Shown here one piece after another: positions 9,045 to 62,503 of a stretch of DNA of 62,503 bases. Below the pieces are notes generated by a model. It did not search any database, was not told the DNA's origin, and was given only the letters and a program-made list of their open reading frames with translations. The position numbers and the translations under genes were made by a program. Source of the stretch: Epibacterium ulvae (GTDB lineage Bacteria > Pseudomonadota > Alphaproteobacteria > Rhodobacterales > Rhodobacteraceae); contig NZ_JAHHIR010000080.1 in NCBI RefSeq assembly GCF_018678075.1, positions 1 to 62,503 on the forward strand, in the 5' to 3' direction. Every line of letters begins with the position of its first letter. The stretch's first letter is position 1.

Positions 9045-9491
9045 CTAGATCTCGATATCTGTGCTGTCGTCCTTGTCGTCCCGGAGCGGGTCATCACGCT
9101 GTTTTTTGCGGATGATGATATCGCCGTTGGGCAGCATCTCGGGCAGCTCATAGACATTCCAATCCTCAACCTTGGCCGCGATATCGGCCAAGGCAGGCCC
9201 CATGGTGGAGAGGAATTCGCCCATGGACGGACCGATCTCCCCCATCAACTCCTGAACGCCCTCCAGCGCGGGTGCCATCTCATCCCGCAGGCCACGCAGG
9301 AACAATTCGGCGCCTCGTTCCATCAGGGAGCCACCGCTGTCAGCCTCCGCTCCGGCTTCGGGCGCGTCATTGGAGAACAGGCTTTGAGCATGGGCCTGGG
9401 ACGGCGTCAGGGCTGTTGTTGATAGGGTCAGCGCGGCAAGGATCGTCGCGGACAAAAGCGCATGGCGCATAGGCTGAAACAGGTCGATCAC
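9045..9491 (-). CDS. Small exported hypothetical protein
   Basis: A 148-residue protein with an N-terminal signal peptide (hydrophobic LLSATILAALTLSTTA, likely cleavage after AHAQ) and an acidic mature part, so periplasmic. The GTG at 9491 is chosen because GAGGAGAG lies six bases upstream; the internal ATG at 9470 is the alternative. The middle repeats helical stretches of the form MGPALADI/MGPSMGEF, and the C-terminus carries NGDIIIRKK followed by an acidic tail. Similar roseobacter proteins are, as I recall, sometimes misnamed AAA+ ATPase; no ATPase motif is present. It converges on ppx. Function unknown. Confidence 0.75.
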   Translation of the reverse strand: MIDLFQPMRHALLSATILAALTLSTTALTPSQAHAQSLFSNDAPEAGAEADSGGSLMERGAELFLRGLRDEMAPALEGVQELMGEIGPSMGEFLSTMGPALADIAAKVEDWNVYELPEMLPNGDIIIRKKQRDDPLRDDKDDSTDIEI

Positions 9492-55464: not shown

Positions 55465-55632
55465 TTACTTGATTTTGCCTTCTTTGTAGTCGACGTGCTT
55501 ACGCACAACCGGGTCATACTTACGTACAACCATTTTCTCGGTCATGGTGCGTGCATTTTTCTTGGTCACGTAGAAGTGGCCCGTGCCCGCGGTCGAGTTC
55601 AGGCGGATCTTAATAGTCGTCGGCTTCGCCAT
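55465..55632 (-). CDS. rpmG: 50S ribosomal protein L33
   Basis: A 55-residue ribosomal protein. The reading frame gives [20 protein letters not shown], then [20 protein letters not shown] and [15 protein letters not shown], a normal L33 of the cysteine-free type (no CxxC zinc pairs). The ATG follows AGGAG. It stands alone with its own terminator. It marks the boundary of the core region; beyond it lies lower-GC DNA. Confidence 0.96.
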
Positions 55633-56100
55633 GGTGCTTCTCCTGCGTCCGAAAAGGCAGGGGCCTCTCGGTAAATTCCATATGAGCGTGCGCTTTTAAA
55701 CGTAGGGGGCACGGAGTCAAGTGGTCTGATGGGGAATTTCCACGGATTCATCCACATTCTTTGGCCAAGAATCGGGATTTGACAAACCCTGTGGACCGAG
55801 CGACGGACTCCAAGTTTGTCCTCCAGTCGACCTTACGAAGTTTGTGTGGCAAACTTGTACACCTACGGGACAGCAGCCTTTCAGAGGTGATACCACGAAT
55901 GGCTGGTTCGAGCCCATAGCTCCAGATACTGCACCTCGCGCGAATAGCTGAGCAGCGTTGATTGTCGACATTGGCGTTTGAAAGGATGCTCCAAAGCCGA
56001 AATTTACCGACGCCCTTGGTTGCTGCAACACAGCCCGTCATTGCGGACATTCATAGAAAACATAACGCCGAGGAAGCATTGTCGAAAAATTACTTTTCGC
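55633..56100. other. Intergenic region at the edge of the sulfatase island
   Basis: A 468-bp stretch after the rpmG promoter region and before the sulfatase 3' end. Two overlapping minus-strand frames of about 100 codons exist (55717-56050), but neither has a ribosome binding site with a convincing start nor a recognised domain. A TPsiC-like GGTTCGAGCCC near 55.9 kb has no matching tRNA fold. It may be remnant DNA at an insertion boundary. Confidence 0.45.
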
Positions 56101-57501
56101 TTAATCCCTAGGTGCGCTCGTTGCGCTGAGGATTGGACCTTTGAGCACTTTGTTTTGCCCGCCGTAGGCAGCCACCAACTTCTGCTGATCCGCCCGAGCT
56201 AGAATATCAATATTGACCGGGTGTTCCTGCAATTGCTCACAAAGTTTGTGCTGCATTTGATCTAAAATCTCTCGGTTTGATGGGTCTTTAGACAAATCTG
56301 TTCGTTCGAAGGGGTCCGCCTCAAGATCAAAAAGCATAGGCGCGTAGCCGACAAAAAGGCATAGTTTGAAACGCCCCTTGCGAAGCATGAAGGCCCCGCT
56401 CGGAGATCCTGCCGCATGATATTGCGAAATAACGGCCCTGTTCGGATCGCTTGGCTTTGACGAAATATGACCTAAATGATCTGGGTCATCGCGGATACCG
56501 GTCAAGGTAGCAGCAATATCTGTCAGTGAAACAGGAGTATTACAAACATCGCCGCGCGTTTTGCTCGCAGGAGCATAAATTAACGGAACCCCGACGCTGT
56601 CTTCGAAAAATGTAGATTTCCCCCACATGCCGCGTTCACCAAGGTTGTCGCCATGGTCGGAAAAATAAATTACGTCTGTTTCGTCTCTTGCGCCAGACGC
56701 ATCCAGCGACGCGAGAACTGCCCCAATATTCGCGTCAAGAAAGCTGACCAGCCCATAATAATTGCGCAATGCCTCTCGTCGGGACTGATCGTCGAAATTG
56801 TCGTAGACATAGGAGCCACGCAGCGCTTGAAGCCATGGGTGATCCGCTGGGCAAGTGGGATGGATTTGCGAAGGTTTAAGGTCCGCATCACGATAAAGGT
56901 CATAAAACTCAGCTGGCGCAATCAGTGGAAAATGCGGCGAAACAAATGACACCAAAAGCGTCCAGCCTGTTTCATCCGCAGCCTCTGAAAGCCAACGGCA
57001 CGCGGCATCACGGATTTGCCGATCATACTTTACATAGCTGCTTTCACCGGGGCCTAGTTTATTAGCCAGTGCGCGGCTTTGGGTCCGCACAGGCAGCGGA
57101 GACCGGATTGATCCCGCAATATCACCTCGCCCATTTTCGACATGCATCGGCAGGATTTGTTCCGAGAACCCTGTATCACGGCTAGAATCCCTATAGTGGA
57201 GCTTACCAATTGAGACCACTTGGCCTCCTCGTGCCCGCAACGTATGTGCCCAACCTTGAGGTATCCCCTCATAGGGGTGCGCATTGTCCCAGTGTCCCGT
57301 CTGATGAACCGGAAGACCAGTCGCGATAGCAGCACGTGCAGGAACACAAATAGGCGACGGGGTATAGGCCGATGTAAACCGCGTTCCGCGCACAGCCAGC
57401 GCATCCATGTGCGGGGTCTGTACAACGGGGTCGCCATAACATCCCATTACTCGACGAGCATGCTCGTCGCTCATTATAATAAGCCTATTTTTCGCGGTCA
57501 T
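56101..57501 (-). CDS. Sulfatase (arylsulfatase/choline-sulfatase type)
   Basis: A 466-residue type I sulfatase without signal peptide, so probably cytoplasmic. The active-site motif C52-V-P-A-R56 (CxPxR, in ICVPARAAIATG) is the formylglycine site, converted from Cys by a maturase encoded elsewhere. Metal ligands are likely Asp12-Glu13 in MSDEHARR and Asp282-His283 in YFSDHGDNLGE, with Lys in GKSTFFE nearby. The C-terminal part is of the COG3119 type. Its start overlaps the tctA stop (ATGA), so it is the last gene of the GntR-ComA-Tct operon. It should hydrolyse a sulfate ester imported by the Tct system; the exact substrate is unknown. Confidence 0.86.
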   Translation of the reverse strand: MTAKNRLIIMSDEHARRVMGCYGDPVVQTPHMDALAVRGTRFTSAYTPSPICVPARAAIATGLPVHQTGHWDNAHPYEGIPQGWAHTLRARGGQVVSIGKLHYRDSSRDTGFSEQILPMHVENGRGDIAGSIRSPLPVRTQSRALANKLGPGESSYVKYDRQIRDAACRWLSEAADETGWTLLVSFVSPHFPLIAPAEFYDLYRDADLKPSQIHPTCPADHPWLQALRGSYVYDNFDDQSRREALRNYYGLVSFLDANIGAVLASLDASGARDETDVIYFSDHGDNLGERGMWGKSTFFEDSVGVPLIYAPASKTRGDVCNTPVSLTDIAATLTGIRDDPDHLGHISSKPSDPNRAVISQYHAAGSPSGAFMLRKGRFKLCLFVGYAPMLFDLEADPFERTDLSKDPSNREILDQMQHKLCEQLQEHPVNIDILARADQQKLVAAYGGQNKVLKGPILSATSAPRD

Positions 57502-59024
57502 CTTGCCTCCGTTTCGATGCGGTCCCGGGCCAATTTCTGTTTGCGCGCGATGTAAAAGATCGACGCGATCATGATCATCCAGATCGCCATGGAAACAGGT
57601 CGGGTAAAGAAGATGTCAGGTGAGCCAAAGCCCATGCGCAGACCAACAAAAAAGTTAGCTTCGACCACAGGAGCAAGGATTATACCGATCAACATGGCCT
57701 GCGGGGGATATCCCTCGCGCCGCATAACGTACCCTAGCAACCCGAACCCTAGCGCAAGATAGACATCAAACATCATGTAGCGGGCCGCATAAGCTCCAGC
57801 GAGAGCGAAAATGGTGATGACGGTCGCAATGACAGGTCTTGGAATTTGCGCCAACCGGCTTGCAACAAAAGATGCGCCAAATCCAAGTACGATCAGCAAT
57901 AATGCAGCAAGTGGTATTGCCCCTAACATAGCATAGGCCGAAACTGTGTTTTCCACGAACAAGCGTGGCCCGACATTCAAACCATGCGCTGACATCACTA
58001 GCAACAACACAGCTGTTGAGGATGAACCAGGGATTCCGAGTGACATCATCGGAACCAGCGCACCGCTGGCACAGGCGTTATCGGCACTTTCACTTGCGAC
58101 GATCCCGCGGGGGTTACCCTTACCAAATTGGGCCTGATCGGCGGCGTTTGGCGAAAACGTGATAGCTTGTTGGTAACTCAGAAAACTGGCGATATTGGCG
58201 CCTGCGCCTGGTAACGCGCCTATGAGGGAGCCGATTGCCGTAGAGCGCAACAAATCCGCAGGCTTGCGGATTGCATATCGCGCGCCGCTGAAAATTCCCT
58301 TGGCGCGTTCCGCAAATCCGATCCTAACGGTTTCTAGCGCGTCCACCATTCGATGACGCTCTGCCTGCGCCATTTCCATGACCTCCGCCACAGCATACAG
58401 GCCAACGAGGGCGGCAATTACCGGAATGCCGTCATACAGCTCAAAAAAACCGAAAGTTCCCCGTTCGGTGCCCCACATAGGGTCTACGCCGACACTGCCA
58501 ATCAGTAGTCCAGCAGCACCGGCAAACCAACCTTTGAACCTGTCATCGCCCGCTATTTGGCCAACCATTATAATTGAGAATACCGCGAGTGCAAAAATTT
58601 CAGGTGCGCCGAACTCCAACGCCAGACGCGCAATTAGCGGGGCAGCTGTGATGGCAATCAACCCCGATGCAAACGAACCCACGACTGATGCCAAAAGCGC
58701 CACACCAAGCGCCATGCTGGCAAGCCCCTTTTTTGACATAGGGAACCCTTCCAACGCCGTAACTGCGCCGGAGGCCGTACCTGGAACATTGATTAGAATG
58801 GCGGGCATCGCCCCTCCAAAACGGACACCGACAAACAAACCAGTCATCATGATCAGGGCGCTGTTGACCTCCATGGTAAGCGTCAAAGGGAATAGGATGA
58901 TCAATGTGTTTGATGCGCCAAACCCAGGCAAGGCACCTGCCACGACACCCAGTGCAACGCCGAGTGCGATGAGAGGCAAGCCAGCCATCAGGATTGGGAG
59001 AACTTCTGCTGCGACAGACATCAT
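57498..59024 (-). CDS. tctA: Tripartite tricarboxylate transporter, TctA large membrane subunit
   Basis: A 508-residue inner-membrane protein with about twelve hydrophobic segments. Family landmarks are GALPGFGASNTLIILFPLT near the start, GVRFGGAMPAILINVPGTAS and ALEGFPMSKKG, then the repeated GALPGAGANIASFLSYQQ and SESADNACASGALVPMMSLGIPGSSSTA. It uses the ion gradient to import the ligand delivered by TctC. The start ATG at 59024 lies five bases after the tctB stop codon; the open frame runs further upstream without likeness. Confidence 0.93.
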   Translation of the reverse strand: MMSVAAEVLPILMAGLPLIALGVALGVVAGALPGFGASNTLIILFPLTLTMEVNSALIMMTGLFVGVRFGGAMPAILINVPGTASGAVTALEGFPMSKKGLASMALGVALLASVVGSFASGLIAITAAPLIARLALEFGAPEIFALAVFSIIMVGQIAGDDRFKGWFAGAAGLLIGSVGVDPMWGTERGTFGFFELYDGIPVIAALVGLYAVAEVMEMAQAERHRMVDALETVRIGFAERAKGIFSGARYAIRKPADLLRSTAIGSLIGALPGAGANIASFLSYQQAITFSPNAADQAQFGKGNPRGIVASESADNACASGALVPMMSLGIPGSSSTAVLLLVMSAHGLNVGPRLFVENTVSAYAMLGAIPLAALLLIVLGFGASFVASRLAQIPRPVIATVITIFALAGAYAARYMMFDVYLALGFGLLGYVMRREGYPPQAMLIGIILAPVVEANFFVGLRMGFGSPDIFFTRPVSMAIWMIMIASIFYIARKQKLARDRIETEAR

Positions 59025-59029
59025 AGCGC

Positions 59030-59503
59030 TCAAGCCACCCAAGGAGCAGTAGGCAGCGGCACATTCAACAGGTGTAACAACAGCAACCAAGCAAGCCCCG
59101 AGAGGGCGAGTGTTAATGCACCTATGCGCACGCCCCCTCCTGCGCGTAAAAAGATCAAGAGCCAAAGCGCCATGATACTCGTCGCGGGTAAAAACCCGAT
59201 CCAACTTTGAAAATAGACATATCCCCACATCGATAAGCACATGACTAGAGCAGGCGCGTGATCTCGGATCGCAACCGGTCGCTGCAATATCCAAGATCCT
59301 ATCGAGTGATCGCCTCCCGCCCAAAATACACCGCGTGACGCGATGATAAGCGTAAGAATGATTAAAATCGAGCCACATAGTGCGCCATAACCTACCGTTT
59401 CAAACCGGCCACCCCACGTCCCTGAAAGGTAATAAGCGCCGTATGCTAGGATCGCGATCGGTGTAAATCCAAAGCGAGTGAGTTCTTTACGGTGTTCAGT
59501 CAT
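59030..59503 (-). CDS. tctB: Tripartite tricarboxylate transporter, TctB small membrane subunit
   Basis: A 157-residue inner-membrane protein with four hydrophobic segments, the usual shape of TctB (GFTPIAILAYGAYYLSGTW at the start). The ATG at 59503 follows AGGAG by nine bases. It lies between tctC and tctA. TctB sequences are poorly conserved, so the call rests largely on size, helices and position. Confidence 0.85.
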   Translation of the reverse strand: MTEHRKELTRFGFTPIAILAYGAYYLSGTWGGRFETVGYGALCGSILIILTLIIASRGVFWAGGDHSIGSWILQRPVAIRDHAPALVMCLSMWGYVYFQSWIGFLPATSIMALWLLIFLRAGGGVRIGALTLALSGLAWLLLLHLLNVPLPTAPWVA

Positions 59504-59561
59504 TCTGCACTGCTCCTAAATCATTTCGCCCGGCCCAGCATTTTGGGCCGAGAGATCGTCC

Positions 59562-60542
59562 TTAGCTGCCTTGCTCGAATAGGCTTCGGTATTGTTCAAG
59601 AAGCGCGAGAATATTCGCGGAGACCATTTCTACTTCTTCTTCACCCCAAGAAATAATCTGCGACGGCTTAGCGCGAATCTTGCCGAAGTCAGCGGCAAAT
59701 TCTGGGTTAGTAGCAACCTGCTGATAAGCGGACAGCAATGCGTCGTAACGATCAGGATGGCTTTCCTTCAGGCTTTCGTGAACAGCCAAGGCGCGGTTCG
59801 ATGACGCTGCAAAAACTGGCACGTTCAACTGGTCTTCTAGAGGTGTGTATCTAGCGTTGGGCGCAGACGGTGCGAAAATACCTAACGCACGGGCTTCTTC
59901 TCCCAATCCCTCAACCGCTGAGAAATTTCCGACTGCGGCCTCAATATCTTGCGCAAGCATAGCTGCAGCGGCCTTTTTAAAGCCTGAAAACGGAATAATC
60001 TCAAATTGCGCACCGGTCTCTTCTGCCAACTGTAGCAAGGCAAGAGTTTGCACTGATGACCAATTGGCGACACCCACCCGGATCGGGTTGGTTTTAGCAT
60101 CCGCAATCAGATCGCTCGCGTTTTGATAGTCAGATTTCGCAGCGGCCGCTAGAATAGCAGGATCGTCCAGATAAGCGCCCAGCCAAGCAAGTTCTTCCTC
60201 TATCACAAAGTCCTGCGTCTGCGAGCCGTAGCCTAATAAAAGCGTGGGAACATTGCCCGAAAAGATCGTGTATCCGTCATCTTTACTGGCCAGAAAGCTT
60301 TTCAACGCGATTTGGCCTGACGCGCCACCGCGATTAACATACCGCATGGGTTGGCCAAGGACTTCGGACAATGCGTCACCAACATAGCGGGACGCGCGAT
60401 CCATACCGCCGCCTTCCGAGCTCATGATGATCATTGTGATTGGTCGTTCAGGATAGTTCTCAGCATTGGCAGGCGCTACAAAAGCGATCGGGCCAGCCAC
60501 CAGGGCCGCGCAGAAAACGCGGCGGATCATATTCCAAGACAT
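59562..60542 (-). CDS. tctC: Tripartite tricarboxylate transporter, TctC substrate-binding protein
   Basis: A 326-residue periplasmic binding protein. The signal peptide runs to about residue 27 (FCAALVAGPIAFVAPANA). The mature TctC/Bug fold starts YPERPITMIIMSSEGGGMDR, where the usual Gly/Asp-type carboxylate pocket is replaced by Ser/Glu/Gly/Gly, and contains NRGGASGQIALKSF and a C-terminal region near KPSQIISWGEEEVE. Bug proteins bind carboxylates such as citrate, aspartate or terephthalate. The modified pocket suggests a different ligand. The start follows AGGGAGGA. Confidence 0.9.
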   Translation of the reverse strand: MSWNMIRRVFCAALVAGPIAFVAPANAENYPERPITMIIMSSEGGGMDRASRYVGDALSEVLGQPMRYVNRGGASGQIALKSFLASKDDGYTIFSGNVPTLLLGYGSQTQDFVIEEELAWLGAYLDDPAILAAAAKSDYQNASDLIADAKTNPIRVGVANWSSVQTLALLQLAEETGAQFEIIPFSGFKKAAAAMLAQDIEAAVGNFSAVEGLGEEARALGIFAPSAPNARYTPLEDQLNVPVFAASSNRALAVHESLKESHPDRYDALLSAYQQVATNPEFAADFGKIRAKPSQIISWGEEEVEMVSANILALLEQYRSLFEQGS

Positions 60543-60599
60543 TATTTCCTCCCTTTCATGTCCTGCACCTATTGCGGCGCATACTTTTGTTTTGACTGC

Positions 60600-61415
60600 T
60601 TAAACCTCCAGCCTGCTGCGCACACCATCGCGCCCAGCGGCACCTTCTATTGTCAAATGCCCCATTTCACGGCTGATCCCCAGCCGTGACGGTTCGAGCC
60701 ATTTGACCAACTCAAAATCGATATTCGGGCCCAAATTTACATCGCGTCCAAGGCCTCTTATTAGGGCGACGGCCTGCGCCTGGCTTTCGGCCTCAAAGAT
60801 CAGAACGTCCGAGCCTACCAGCTTAGCCAAGTCTCGCATTCGCTCGATTCCGTCTGGCTTCACGTCTGGCATAAGAAGTTGGTCGATTTCAGACCGTTCA
60901 AGAATCACATAGGTCGCACCTGCGTCAGTCCAAAGGGCGATGTCTTCTGCTGCTCGTTTTGGGTCCATCGGTGCAGTTGGGTATTTCTCACCCCACTCGA
61001 CGAACACCATAATTCCTACATCCGAATAAGACGCTATATGGCTCGCCATTTCTGCCGACCCAAGATCAAGGATGTTATTGGATATCTCTATTGCGGGCGC
61101 ACCTATATCGCGCAGATAGGCCGCTAACTCGTCAGCTTTGCCCTGTGCCACGGCGTTTTCAAACAAAATCCCGCCAAAGAACGGCAATAAGTTATATTCC
61201 TGATAAAGCTTCAGTTTTTCGACCAAAAAAGTTTCGGAATAGAGTCGCGGCGCAAAGTTAGAAATCTTGGCGAAATCTACAAACTGCGCATAGGTTTCAA
61301 GAAATTCGCGTTGTTCGCCAAGGCCGCGCATCCGATCGCGCACCGCTGTCAGCCCTGTTTTGCGTGGCTTGCTTGGGCGTTGGTCAAGCTGCAGAAAATC
61401 AAACGCGTATTTCAT
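60600..61415 (-). CDS. Phosphosulfolactate synthase (ComA) family protein, divergent
   Basis: A 271-residue TIM-barrel protein of the ComA family (PF02679). The family line is clear: RPSKPRKTGLTAVRDRM near the start, FVDFAKI, LVEKLKLYQEYN, FFGGILFENA, APAIEISNNILDL, DAGATYVILERSEI, VLIFEAES and DVNLGPNIDFELV. ComA joins sulfite to phosphoenolpyruvate in coenzyme M synthesis. Here conserved parts differ: FGWGTS becomes ISNFAP, and the C-terminal RRGLRGDT is lost. A catabolic or altered reaction is therefore likely. It lies one base after the GntR stop codon and heads the tct genes and the sulfatase. Confidence 0.84.
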   Translation of the reverse strand: MKYAFDFLQLDQRPSKPRKTGLTAVRDRMRGLGEQREFLETYAQFVDFAKISNFAPRLYSETFLVEKLKLYQEYNLLPFFGGILFENAVAQGKADELAAYLRDIGAPAIEISNNILDLGSAEMASHIASYSDVGIMVFVEWGEKYPTAPMDPKRAAEDIALWTDAGATYVILERSEIDQLLMPDVKPDGIERMRDLAKLVGSDVLIFEAESQAQAVALIRGLGRDVNLGPNIDFELVKWLEPSRLGISREMGHLTIEGAAGRDGVRSRLEV

Positions 61416-61416
61416 A

Positions 61417-62166
61417 TTACTCACCCATTCCAACTTGAGCATCTCCGGCCAACGTAACAATGTCGGCAAGGAATACAGACCGGCTCATCAAAAGCGGTCG
61501 TCCACGGCGATCGACAGTGGTGTCTTCGCGCTGAAGAATTGTAGTTTCAGTTGGGACGCCGATCAGTTCGGCGTCAAAGGCAGTCACTTGTCCCGCGGAA
61601 ATACGGAAGTTTCTCCTATAGGGACCTGCGGTCACATCCTTGGTCAATTCTAACCGAAGGTCTGCGCTCGCAATAACTTCGGGGCGGATCGTTTGCATGA
61701 CATCGAACGGCAGATTACAGGTCTCCAAGCCAGCGGTTCGATCTTGTAGCAATAACCTCCGTCGACAGCGGATCATGTGGCTGCCCGGCTCGATCTGCAA
61801 AATTTCAGCCATTCTATCTGGTGCCGCGATCAGATCACTGCCCAGATGTTCATAGGTGAACGTTGCTGTGTTGCCATTCGCCAGCGCTTCGGAGTCCCCC
61901 AAATCAACGGCCACCTTGGGTTCCGTGACAAACACTCCTTTGCCCTGACGCGCGATCACCAATCCCTGGTTGCTAAGGTTCAAAATCGCCTGCCTCACTG
62001 TCGCTTGACTTACATTGAAGCGGGCCATCATTTCCGTTTGCGACGGCAGTTTATTGCCAGGGACAAGTTCGCCCTTGCCAATGCGGCGCGCGAAATCTTC
62101 CGCAATTTGCGCATAAAGTGGCTTTGAAGTTTCGGCGGTCTCGTTCGTAGTGACGTATTCCTTCAT
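61417..62166 (-). CDS. GntR family regulator with UTRA domain
   Basis: A 249-residue regulator. The winged helix (about residues 14-82) has LYAQIAEDFARRIGKGELVP and the recognition part SQTEMMARFNVSQATVRQAI, ending with ARQGKGVFV. The UTRA ligand domain (about 95-240) contains RCRRRLLLQDRTAGLETCNL and LQREDTTVDRRGRPLLMSRS. UTRA regulators of the HutC type sense small metabolites. It is the first gene of the operon, so it most likely represses its own unit until the substrate is present. A perfect inverted repeat lies 18 bases upstream of the start codon. Confidence 0.93.
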   Translation of the reverse strand: MKEYVTTNETAETSKPLYAQIAEDFARRIGKGELVPGNKLPSQTEMMARFNVSQATVRQAILNLSNQGLVIARQGKGVFVTEPKVAVDLGDSEALANGNTATFTYEHLGSDLIAAPDRMAEILQIEPGSHMIRCRRRLLLQDRTAGLETCNLPFDVMQTIRPEVIASADLRLELTKDVTAGPYRRNFRISAGQVTAFDAELIGVPTETTILQREDTTVDRRGRPLLMSRSVFLADIVTLAGDAQVGMGE

Positions 62167-62503
62167 GCAAACAACTTACAACTCATTCGCATGAGCTGTC
62201 AACTATTGCGAATGAATGGAGAAACAGATCGATTGCACTGCTCTAGGTTTGGTGCGCTACTGAATGTCTTGTGTGGATGGCTCCTGCATAGCAAGACATT
62301 TCTGATGTGATTTGCTCTTTGGTCAGAAGCAGTCTTGTGTCCGGCCTGTTGACGCGATGCACATGACCGCTGGCCCTGATGGGTTCCGCGAACCAAGTCC
62401 CATTCTGCTTTGCGGACTGATGTGTCCCTGACATTCGGCGGGGTGTCTTGGCTGTTACGGCTGACTGTTGTGCCATCACTTCGCTGTACCTGCTCACTCC
62501 TGG
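62167..62503. other. Upstream region of the organosulfur operon
   Basis: Up to the window end no gene is supported. Overlapping minus-strand frames (62199-62396 and 62243-62497) have no recognised domain; the second starts GTG near the edge and could be a remnant. The part next to the GntR gene carries the inverted repeat listed separately. Confidence 0.45.
62184..62214. promoter_or_regulatory. Candidate operator of the GntR regulator
   Basis: CATTCGCA (62184-62191) and TGCGAATG (62207-62214) are a perfect 8-bp inverted repeat with 15 bases between. It lies 18 bases upstream of the GntR start codon, over the likely promoter. CTCAT-TCGC-ATGAG overlaps it. The position fits autoregulation. Confidence 0.65.

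Follow-up and report, generated by a model that had tools for sequence, protein, structure and literature searches.

What is a relative of ComA, an enzyme that adds sulfite to phosphoenolpyruvate, doing between a transcriptional regulator and a set of transporter and sulfatase genes? This question is raised by one end of a 62,503-nucleotide stretch of Epibacterium ulvae DNA (hereafter, the window), which makes up the entire contig C74 of a genome assembled into 107 contigs (4.09 Mb). A sequence-only reading had proposed that six genes at this end import a carboxylate bearing a sulfate ester or a sulfonate, which would then be desulfated and/or cleaved at its C-S bond. The answer that we favor, and to which we give about an even chance, is a horizontally moving operon that would take up a sulfated hydroxy(poly)carboxylate and desulfate it in the cytosol, with lyase-type processing by the ComA-like enzyme to follow. 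Import and desulfation remain the best reading of that earlier proposal, whereas C-S cleavage found no direct support and is treated below as a rival. The six genes are as follows.

61417..62166, minus strand: gntR, a GntR/HutC-type regulator with a UTRA domain, 249 amino acids (Pfam GntR 65.5 bits, UTRA 52.8 bits)
60600..61415, minus strand: comA-like, a non-canonical ComA-fold enzyme, 271 amino acids (Pfam ComA 163 bits, cut-off 25.2)
59562..60542, minus strand: tctC, the solute-binding protein of a tripartite tricarboxylate transporter (TTT), 326 amino acids (Pfam TctC)
59030..59503, minus strand: tctB, the small TTT membrane subunit, 157 amino acids (Pfam TctB 29.9 bits, 0.8 bit over the cut-off of 29.1)
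57498..59024, minus strand: tctA, the large TTT membrane subunit, 508 amino acids (Pfam TctA 396 bits)
56101..57501, minus strand: a formylglycine-type (C-x-P-x-R) sulfatase, 466 amino acids (Pfam Sulfatase), overlapping tctA by 4 bp (ATGA)

These genes occupy 56101-62166 in the order gntR(UTRA)-comA-like-tctC-tctB-tctA-sulfatase, spaced, counting from gntR, by +1, +57, +58, +5 and -4 bases, and all six reading frames are open. The open reading frames listed for the comA-like gene (289 amino acids) and tctA (626 amino acids) start too far upstream, and lengths of 271 and 508 amino acids were used. Since TctA, TctB and TctC all lie above their Pfam cut-offs, TctB only just, the transporter is complete by gene content. 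Coordinates, spacings and families therefore confirm the compact unit of the sequence-only reading, including its tripartite transporter and the ATGA overlap between tctA and the sulfatase.

Absence of this gene order from all relatives had been named beforehand as an observation that would speak against such a unit, and the order does recur in a second genus. A contig titled uncultured Nioella sp. (L011) carries the identical six genes in identical order, with protein identities to the window of 58% for gntR, 67% for comA-like, 71% for tctC, 46% for tctB, 82% for tctA and 69% for the sulfatase. Given this order, the clustering of the six genes is beyond chance. Neither the 9-kb nor the 5.4-kb flank of the Nioella unit was matched by window positions 1-56100 in a tblastx comparison (E ≤ 1e-10). 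Because two genera share the six-gene order and a palindrome (see below) within unrelated flanks, the unit probably moves as a cassette. It also differs from its surroundings in composition, as the sequence-only reading had noted, with a GC content of 52.8% against 58.3% for window positions 1-56100 and below every one of the 101 sliding 6-kb windows in that part.

The comA-like gene occurs in one of 18 genomes of the genus, the window's own, and in the family eight of 295 genomes hold any homologue at E ≤ 0.001, only the Nioella one being close. PF02679 matched four of the 390 genomes covered in the order, 19 (17 above cut-off) of the 385 in the class and five (3 above cut-off) of the 398 in the phylum, counts that include the window's own genome each time. 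A contig scan gave only Nioella and one distant metagenome-assembled genome, and no additional trio of sulfatase, TTT and ComA-like genes appeared in nine genomes from the family of G620 or in five from that of G954; short contigs (L019, L055, L162 and others) may conceal neighbours. Judged from these comparisons, the six-gene unit looks like a rare, mobile cassette.

The sulfatase carries the motif C-V-P-A-R, and the 48 aligned sulfatases, a set that includes some duplicates, all agree at D12, C52, P54, R56, K100, H102, H190, D282, H283 and K295, which are catalytic residues in the family. Because the protein begins directly with the catalytic domain, it is probably cytosolic. Its nearest solved relatives are choline-sulfatases, and phosphonate monoester hydrolases also match its sequence. 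Choline-sulfatase itself was rejected as its identity, the TIGR03417 score being 240.9 bits against a cut-off of 433.45. It shares the C-x-P-x-R motif and catalytic residues with choline-sulfatase (BetC) and other S1-type formylglycine sulfatases, but is linked to a TTT where BetC is linked to betaine genes. A gene resembling that for the formylglycine-generating enzyme (FGE) lies elsewhere in the genome (G000:C89; PF03781, 219 bits) beside another sulfatase, on a different contig from the unit, and carries GGSFLCHRSYCYRYR, presumably the FGE motif. As a separate observation, the region around it (L105, G000:C89:9000-18000) combines this sulfatase and FGE-like gene with enolase-superfamily-like, gluconolactonase-like, short-chain dehydrogenase/reductase and ABC ATPase genes, all named from their sequences, which may make it a locus for sulfated sugar acids within this genome.

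How often does such a sulfatase keep company with a TTT? Relatives at E ≤ 1e-90 were found in 49 of 394 genomes of the family, in at least 60 places, a lower bound because at most four candidates were scored per genome. Forty of the 60 were sampled; three others are the window, L011 and L014, and 17 lie outside the sample. The neighbour labels at these 40 loci, one of which (L148) is the same plasmid as L082, come from BLAST and are crude, although some were checked by profiles. Within the retrieved stretch, tctA was present in 32 of the 40; 27 have a gene labelled MarR and 21 one labelled as a second sulfatase (sulfatase2), and a frequent layout is tctC-tctB-tctA-second sulfatase, divergent from MarR-sulfatase. 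Eight loci have no tctA: six (L174, L175, L179-L182) make up a separate branch at the base of the sulfatase tree, and the remaining two are L170, next to a TRAP system, and L162, whose contig is 4.8 kb long. Among ten plasmid loci picked from 167 matching records, five pair the sulfatase with an annotated TTT permease (Chelativorans, Rhodobacteraceae M382, two Sulfitobacter and Paracoccus seriniphilus), the Polaromonas locus has TctC genes only and that of Marinovum a TRAP system, and the incomplete gene tables of the Mameliella, Paraburkholderia and Nocardia loci list no TTT. Within the family, sulfatase and TTT genes commonly go together as a module. Of the gene combination put forward by the sequence-only reading, then, the six-gene order is conserved, while its sulfatase-TTT part is not a one-off.

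The MarR-sulfatase/tctCBA-sulfatase loci (e.g., L082, L145-L151) resemble the window in that a complete TTT accompanies a sulfatase from the clade of the window's own. They differ in having MarR in place of GntR, often a second sulfatase, a very different TctC, and no gene labelled ComA-like in any of the 40 sampled loci. Some related loci also carry an FGE gene together with a second sulfatase. Eight of the 40 have a gene labelled as a GlcD-like FAD oxidase or FMN hydroxy-acid oxidase: that of L144 resembles the D-2-hydroxyglutarate dehydrogenase YdiJ (1019 bits, cut-off 1350), that of L088 resembles GlcD (346 bits, cut-off 567.9), and that of L082 passes an L-lactate dehydrogenase subfamily model and is LldD-like (421.7 bits, cut-off 376). 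In L144, L171 and L183 an Amidohydro_2 protein adjoins the sulfatase, the one in L171 resembling fuconolactonase, far under the cut-off. Because of these oxidase/dehydrogenase and Amidohydro_2 genes, sulfated 2-hydroxy or sugar acids are plausible substrates of the module. Such MarR-type loci (L144-L183) recur across many genera of the family and are apparently undescribed in their own right.

The ComA-like protein is where the window departs from this module. In a tree of 45 sequences, Methanocaldococcus jannaschii ComA, Bacillus subtilis YitD and the proteins of coenzyme-M clusters form one canonical clade (support 0.997), and the window and Nioella proteins pair (0.999) outside it, L072 being nearest (0.81). 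Their branch (0.917) also holds proteins linked to TcuA and PrpF, its inner supports being weak, and the L014 and L071 proteins pair elsewhere in the tree (0.96). Against the TIGR03849 equivalog model (cut-off 280) the window protein scores 125.6 bits and so lacks the equivalog assignment; four non-canonical proteins including it score 86.4-125.6, and six canonical-clade proteins used as a control 213.7-325.4, only one of these six passing 280. A predicted model of the window protein (mean pLDDT 80, from a three-sequence alignment) matches 1u83 and 1qwg, which indicates a ComA fold. D20, D40, K43, E79, E103, S105, E133, G135, K137, E168, E205, N227, E237 and R240 are kept, and G22, G47, G107, R170, G177, P207 and R244 are not. 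R170 occurs in 11 of 11 canonical rows versus one of 41 others, and G177 in 11 of 11 versus none of 41; P207, R244, G47 and G107 are retained in some other non-canonical groups. At the P207 position an acidic residue is found in the window, Nioella, L062, L064, L026, L027 and L070 (the last three TcuA/PrpF-linked) and in one L018 row. The family core is kept and part of the ligand pocket has probably changed, as far as residue roles can be inferred. Membership of the ComA family stands, given the Pfam score and the fold, but it should not be taken to imply sulfonate chemistry, given the position outside the canonical clade and the lost residues. Apart from this comparison, a plasmid of Legionella lytica (L078, 2856-5768) encodes a 970-amino-acid annotated phosphosulfolactate synthase whose ComA part is C-terminal, followed by an annotated 2-phosphosulfolactate phosphatase gene.

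A ComA-like gene stands with such a sulfatase and with TTT gene(s) in five loci (the window, L011, L014, L071 and L072) that represent at least two ComA branches. In L014, MarR-sulfatase is divergent from tctC-tctB-tctA-comA; in L071, tctC-sulfatase-MarR lies beside comA, no tctA being found in 11.4 kb; in L072, an FCD regulator-comA-tctC-tctA row faces sulfatase-aconitase. A different sulfatase accompanies the ComA-like gene of L017. The ComA-like gene is a rare addition to the sulfatase-TTT module. The neighbours of ComA-like genes also include PrpF, the tricarballylate dehydrogenase TcuA and an aconitase, and the window's own branch contains relatives beside TcuA, PrpF and MmgE/PrpD, with L072 beside aconitase. 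Loci that combine ComA-like, TTT and MmgE/PrpD/PrpF/TcuA genes (e.g., Paracoccus versutus pTAV3) share with the window the ComA-like protein, the TTT and a polycarboxylate setting; they lack a sulfatase of this clade, and the window lacks MmgE/PrpD, PrpF and TcuA genes. A second recurrent combination places the ComA-like gene beside MmgE/PrpD, in several cases with a TTT (L058, L059, L060, L073, L074, L079, L099-L103). On a plasmid of Arthrobacter sp. ERGS1:01 (L029, 7278-13118) the ComA-like gene lies between a CocE/NonD hydrolase and genes for thioredoxin reductase, thioredoxin and a UGSC family (seleno)protein, and in L069 a CocE/NonD-like gene likewise precedes it.

Two elements upstream of gntR bear on the control of the unit.

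62178..62199, minus strand: 22-bp palindrome ACAGCTCATGCGAATGAGTTGT, candidate GntR operator, also in L011 at about 9222-9243
62202-62197: TTGACA hexamer

In both units ACAnCTCATGCGnATGAGnTGT stands upstream of gntR, just behind a TTGACA or TTTACA hexamer, and the palindrome core CTCATNNNNATGAG occurs in five of 113 loci, every one a stretch of the window or L011 genomic place. The second hexamer is weak, and the site was absent from the output of a general promoter scan. The natural reading, inferred from this arrangement, is a GntR operator inside the operon promoter. The gntR product carries a GntR helix-turn-helix and a UTRA domain, and its best regulator model is PhnF (99.7 bits, far under the cut-off of 156.8).

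Put together, the proposed operon would work as follows. GntR would repress from the palindrome until an effector binds its UTRA domain; TctC would bind, and TctAB import, an organic acid bearing a sulfate ester; the sulfatase, probably in the cytosol, would free the sulfate, leaving a hydroxy-acid; and the ComA-like enzyme may then act on the carbon skeleton through enolate chemistry, by alpha-proton abstraction with beta-elimination or by C-C lysis, its product passing to central metabolism. A related enzyme whose family core is intact could remove a beta-substituent or cleave a C-C bond next to a carboxylate. Our guess at the substrate, a sulfated hydroxy(poly)carboxylate, comes from the 2-hydroxy-acid dehydrogenases and the lactonase-type amidohydrolase at some module loci that lack a ComA-like gene, and from the aconitate- and tricarballylate-type enzymes beside ComA-like relatives of the window's branch.

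Several observations weigh against this proposal. The association of TctA or TctC with non-canonical ComA genes (17 of 39 loci versus none of nine canonical ones; Fisher p 0.018) speaks for the proposal, but it was counted after seeing the data, with the window included and relatedness ignored. Within 8 kb no single neighbour falls below p 0.05, the values being 0.095 for TctA (11/39), 0.09 for TctC (13/39), 0.09 for MmgE/PrpD (13/39) and 0.58 for the sulfatase (6/39), each against 0/9 canonical loci. These 48 loci include L026 but not the identical L025; for L099-L104 and L078 a class was assigned before tree placement, which then put L078 inside the canonical clade and the remaining six outside it. 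For many non-canonical ComA genes no TTT lies nearby. Members of this group also stand beside a peptidase, beside ABC or NMT1-type systems, or without any recognisable partner, and neighbours so varied indicate that the group is not uniform. The window TctC is 71% identical to that of Nioella and only 18-22% identical to the aligned TctC proteins of MarR-type loci, and given this divergence its ligand may differ from theirs and the hints from MarR loci may not transfer. The PDB relatives of TctC are not close enough to suggest its ligand, and no solved relative of TctA was found by sequence. The window unit itself contains no hydroxy-acid dehydrogenase or aconitase gene, and NCBIfam gives the FGE-like gene no FGE call.

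The main rival retains a sulfonate. Here the ComA-like enzyme would eliminate sulfite, in the reverse type of the ComA reaction, from a sulfosuccinate- or sulfo-tricarballylate-like carboxylate, with the sulfatase serving a companion sulfate ester. It draws on the family-shared K43, E103, E133, K137 and R240 kept in the window protein, and on relatives beside enzymes of unsaturated di- and tricarboxylates, the natural products of sulfite elimination. We nevertheless consider it unlikely: the canonical R170, P207, R244, G47, G107 and G177 are not kept, the unit holds no recognised sulfite-handling or sulfolyase gene, and a pure sulfonate would need no sulfatase. Far less probable still, and close to being dismissed, is an operon that builds sulfite into sulfolactate by means of a true phosphosulfolactate synthase. 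The window protein shares with ComA, YitD and the coenzyme-M-cluster ComA proteins the fold, the family-shared residues and a Pfam ComA score well above cut-off, but it lies outside their clade, lacks R170, P207, R244, G47, G107 and G177, scores low on TIGR03849 (125.6 bits versus 213.7-325.4), and has no comB-like or coenzyme-M genes in its unit.

Phosphorus instead of sulfur would make the sulfatase-fold enzyme a phosphate or phosphonate monoester hydrolase and the imported compound a phosphorylated or phosphono-carboxylate. Phosphonate monoester hydrolases do have the same fold and match the sequence, and PhnF is the best regulator model; the PhnF score is far under its cut-off, however, choline-sulfatases are the closest solved relatives, and an FGE gene with a second sulfatase stands at some related loci, which makes this version quite improbable in our view. 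There is, finally, little chance that the cluster is decaying or accidental cargo beside a mobile element. Its low GC, the multi-copy repeat at its border and the absence of the comA-like gene from 17 congeners would fit such an origin, but all six frames are open, the six-gene order with its palindrome occurs in another genus at 46-82% protein identity, and sulfatase, TTT gene(s) and ComA-like gene come together in three differently arranged loci.

Beyond the operon itself, we tentatively suggest, with rather less than even confidence, that roseobacters and their relatives have a widespread, undescribed route of TTT uptake and cytosolic desulfation for small sulfated acids, that the window-type ComA branch represents a new lyase or hydro-lyase acting on the desulfated product, and that the label phosphosulfolactate synthase is wrong for TTT-linked genes. 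Lactic- and glycolic-acid sulfates, known as atmospheric organosulfates, would be among the candidate substrates. If true, this would tie TTT uptake to intracellular desulfation and to the use of small sulfate esters by marine bacteria, and genes labelled phosphosulfolactate synthase in TTT loci would do something else. Six clonable genes with a candidate operator offer a means to find the substrate.

The families are known and, as far as we found, their combination is undescribed. In agreement with the sequence-only reading, no paper describing the operon was found in the open-access literature, which is weak evidence as preprints and most subscription papers lay outside this scope. No open-access paper contained both "phosphosulfolactate synthase" and "tripartite tricarboxylate transporter"; among those with "sulfatase" and "tripartite tricarboxylate," such a system is described in none of the titles or opening lines of abstracts, nor do the available passages of PMC12421959, PMC10838667 and PMC7029141 report such an operon. 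Mercaptosuccinate catabolism (PMC5373536) was dropped as a candidate, its available passages containing no ComA term. Vibrio sp. C42 has a TTT for alginate oligosaccharides (PMC13390454), which resembles the window TTT in importing an acidic marine substrate other than citrate, according to its abstract and outline; unlike the window, neither a sulfatase nor a ComA-like protein is mentioned there.

Two further features border the unit.

55465-55632, same strand as the unit: rpmG, named from sequence alone, 468 bases beyond the sulfatase
62262..62503, no strand assigned: multi-copy repeat, probably the end of a mobile element, forming the last 242 bases of the contig

The unit does lie beyond rpmG, as had been noted from the sequence, and Pfam searches of 55748-56050 and 62243-62497 gave no match. 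Because the last 242 bases are a multi-copy repeat, the sequence upstream of gntR is broken off at the contig end. Four other contigs of this genome have copies of the repeat, at 97-99% identity, close to their ends, and similar DNA is found on 105 plasmid records.

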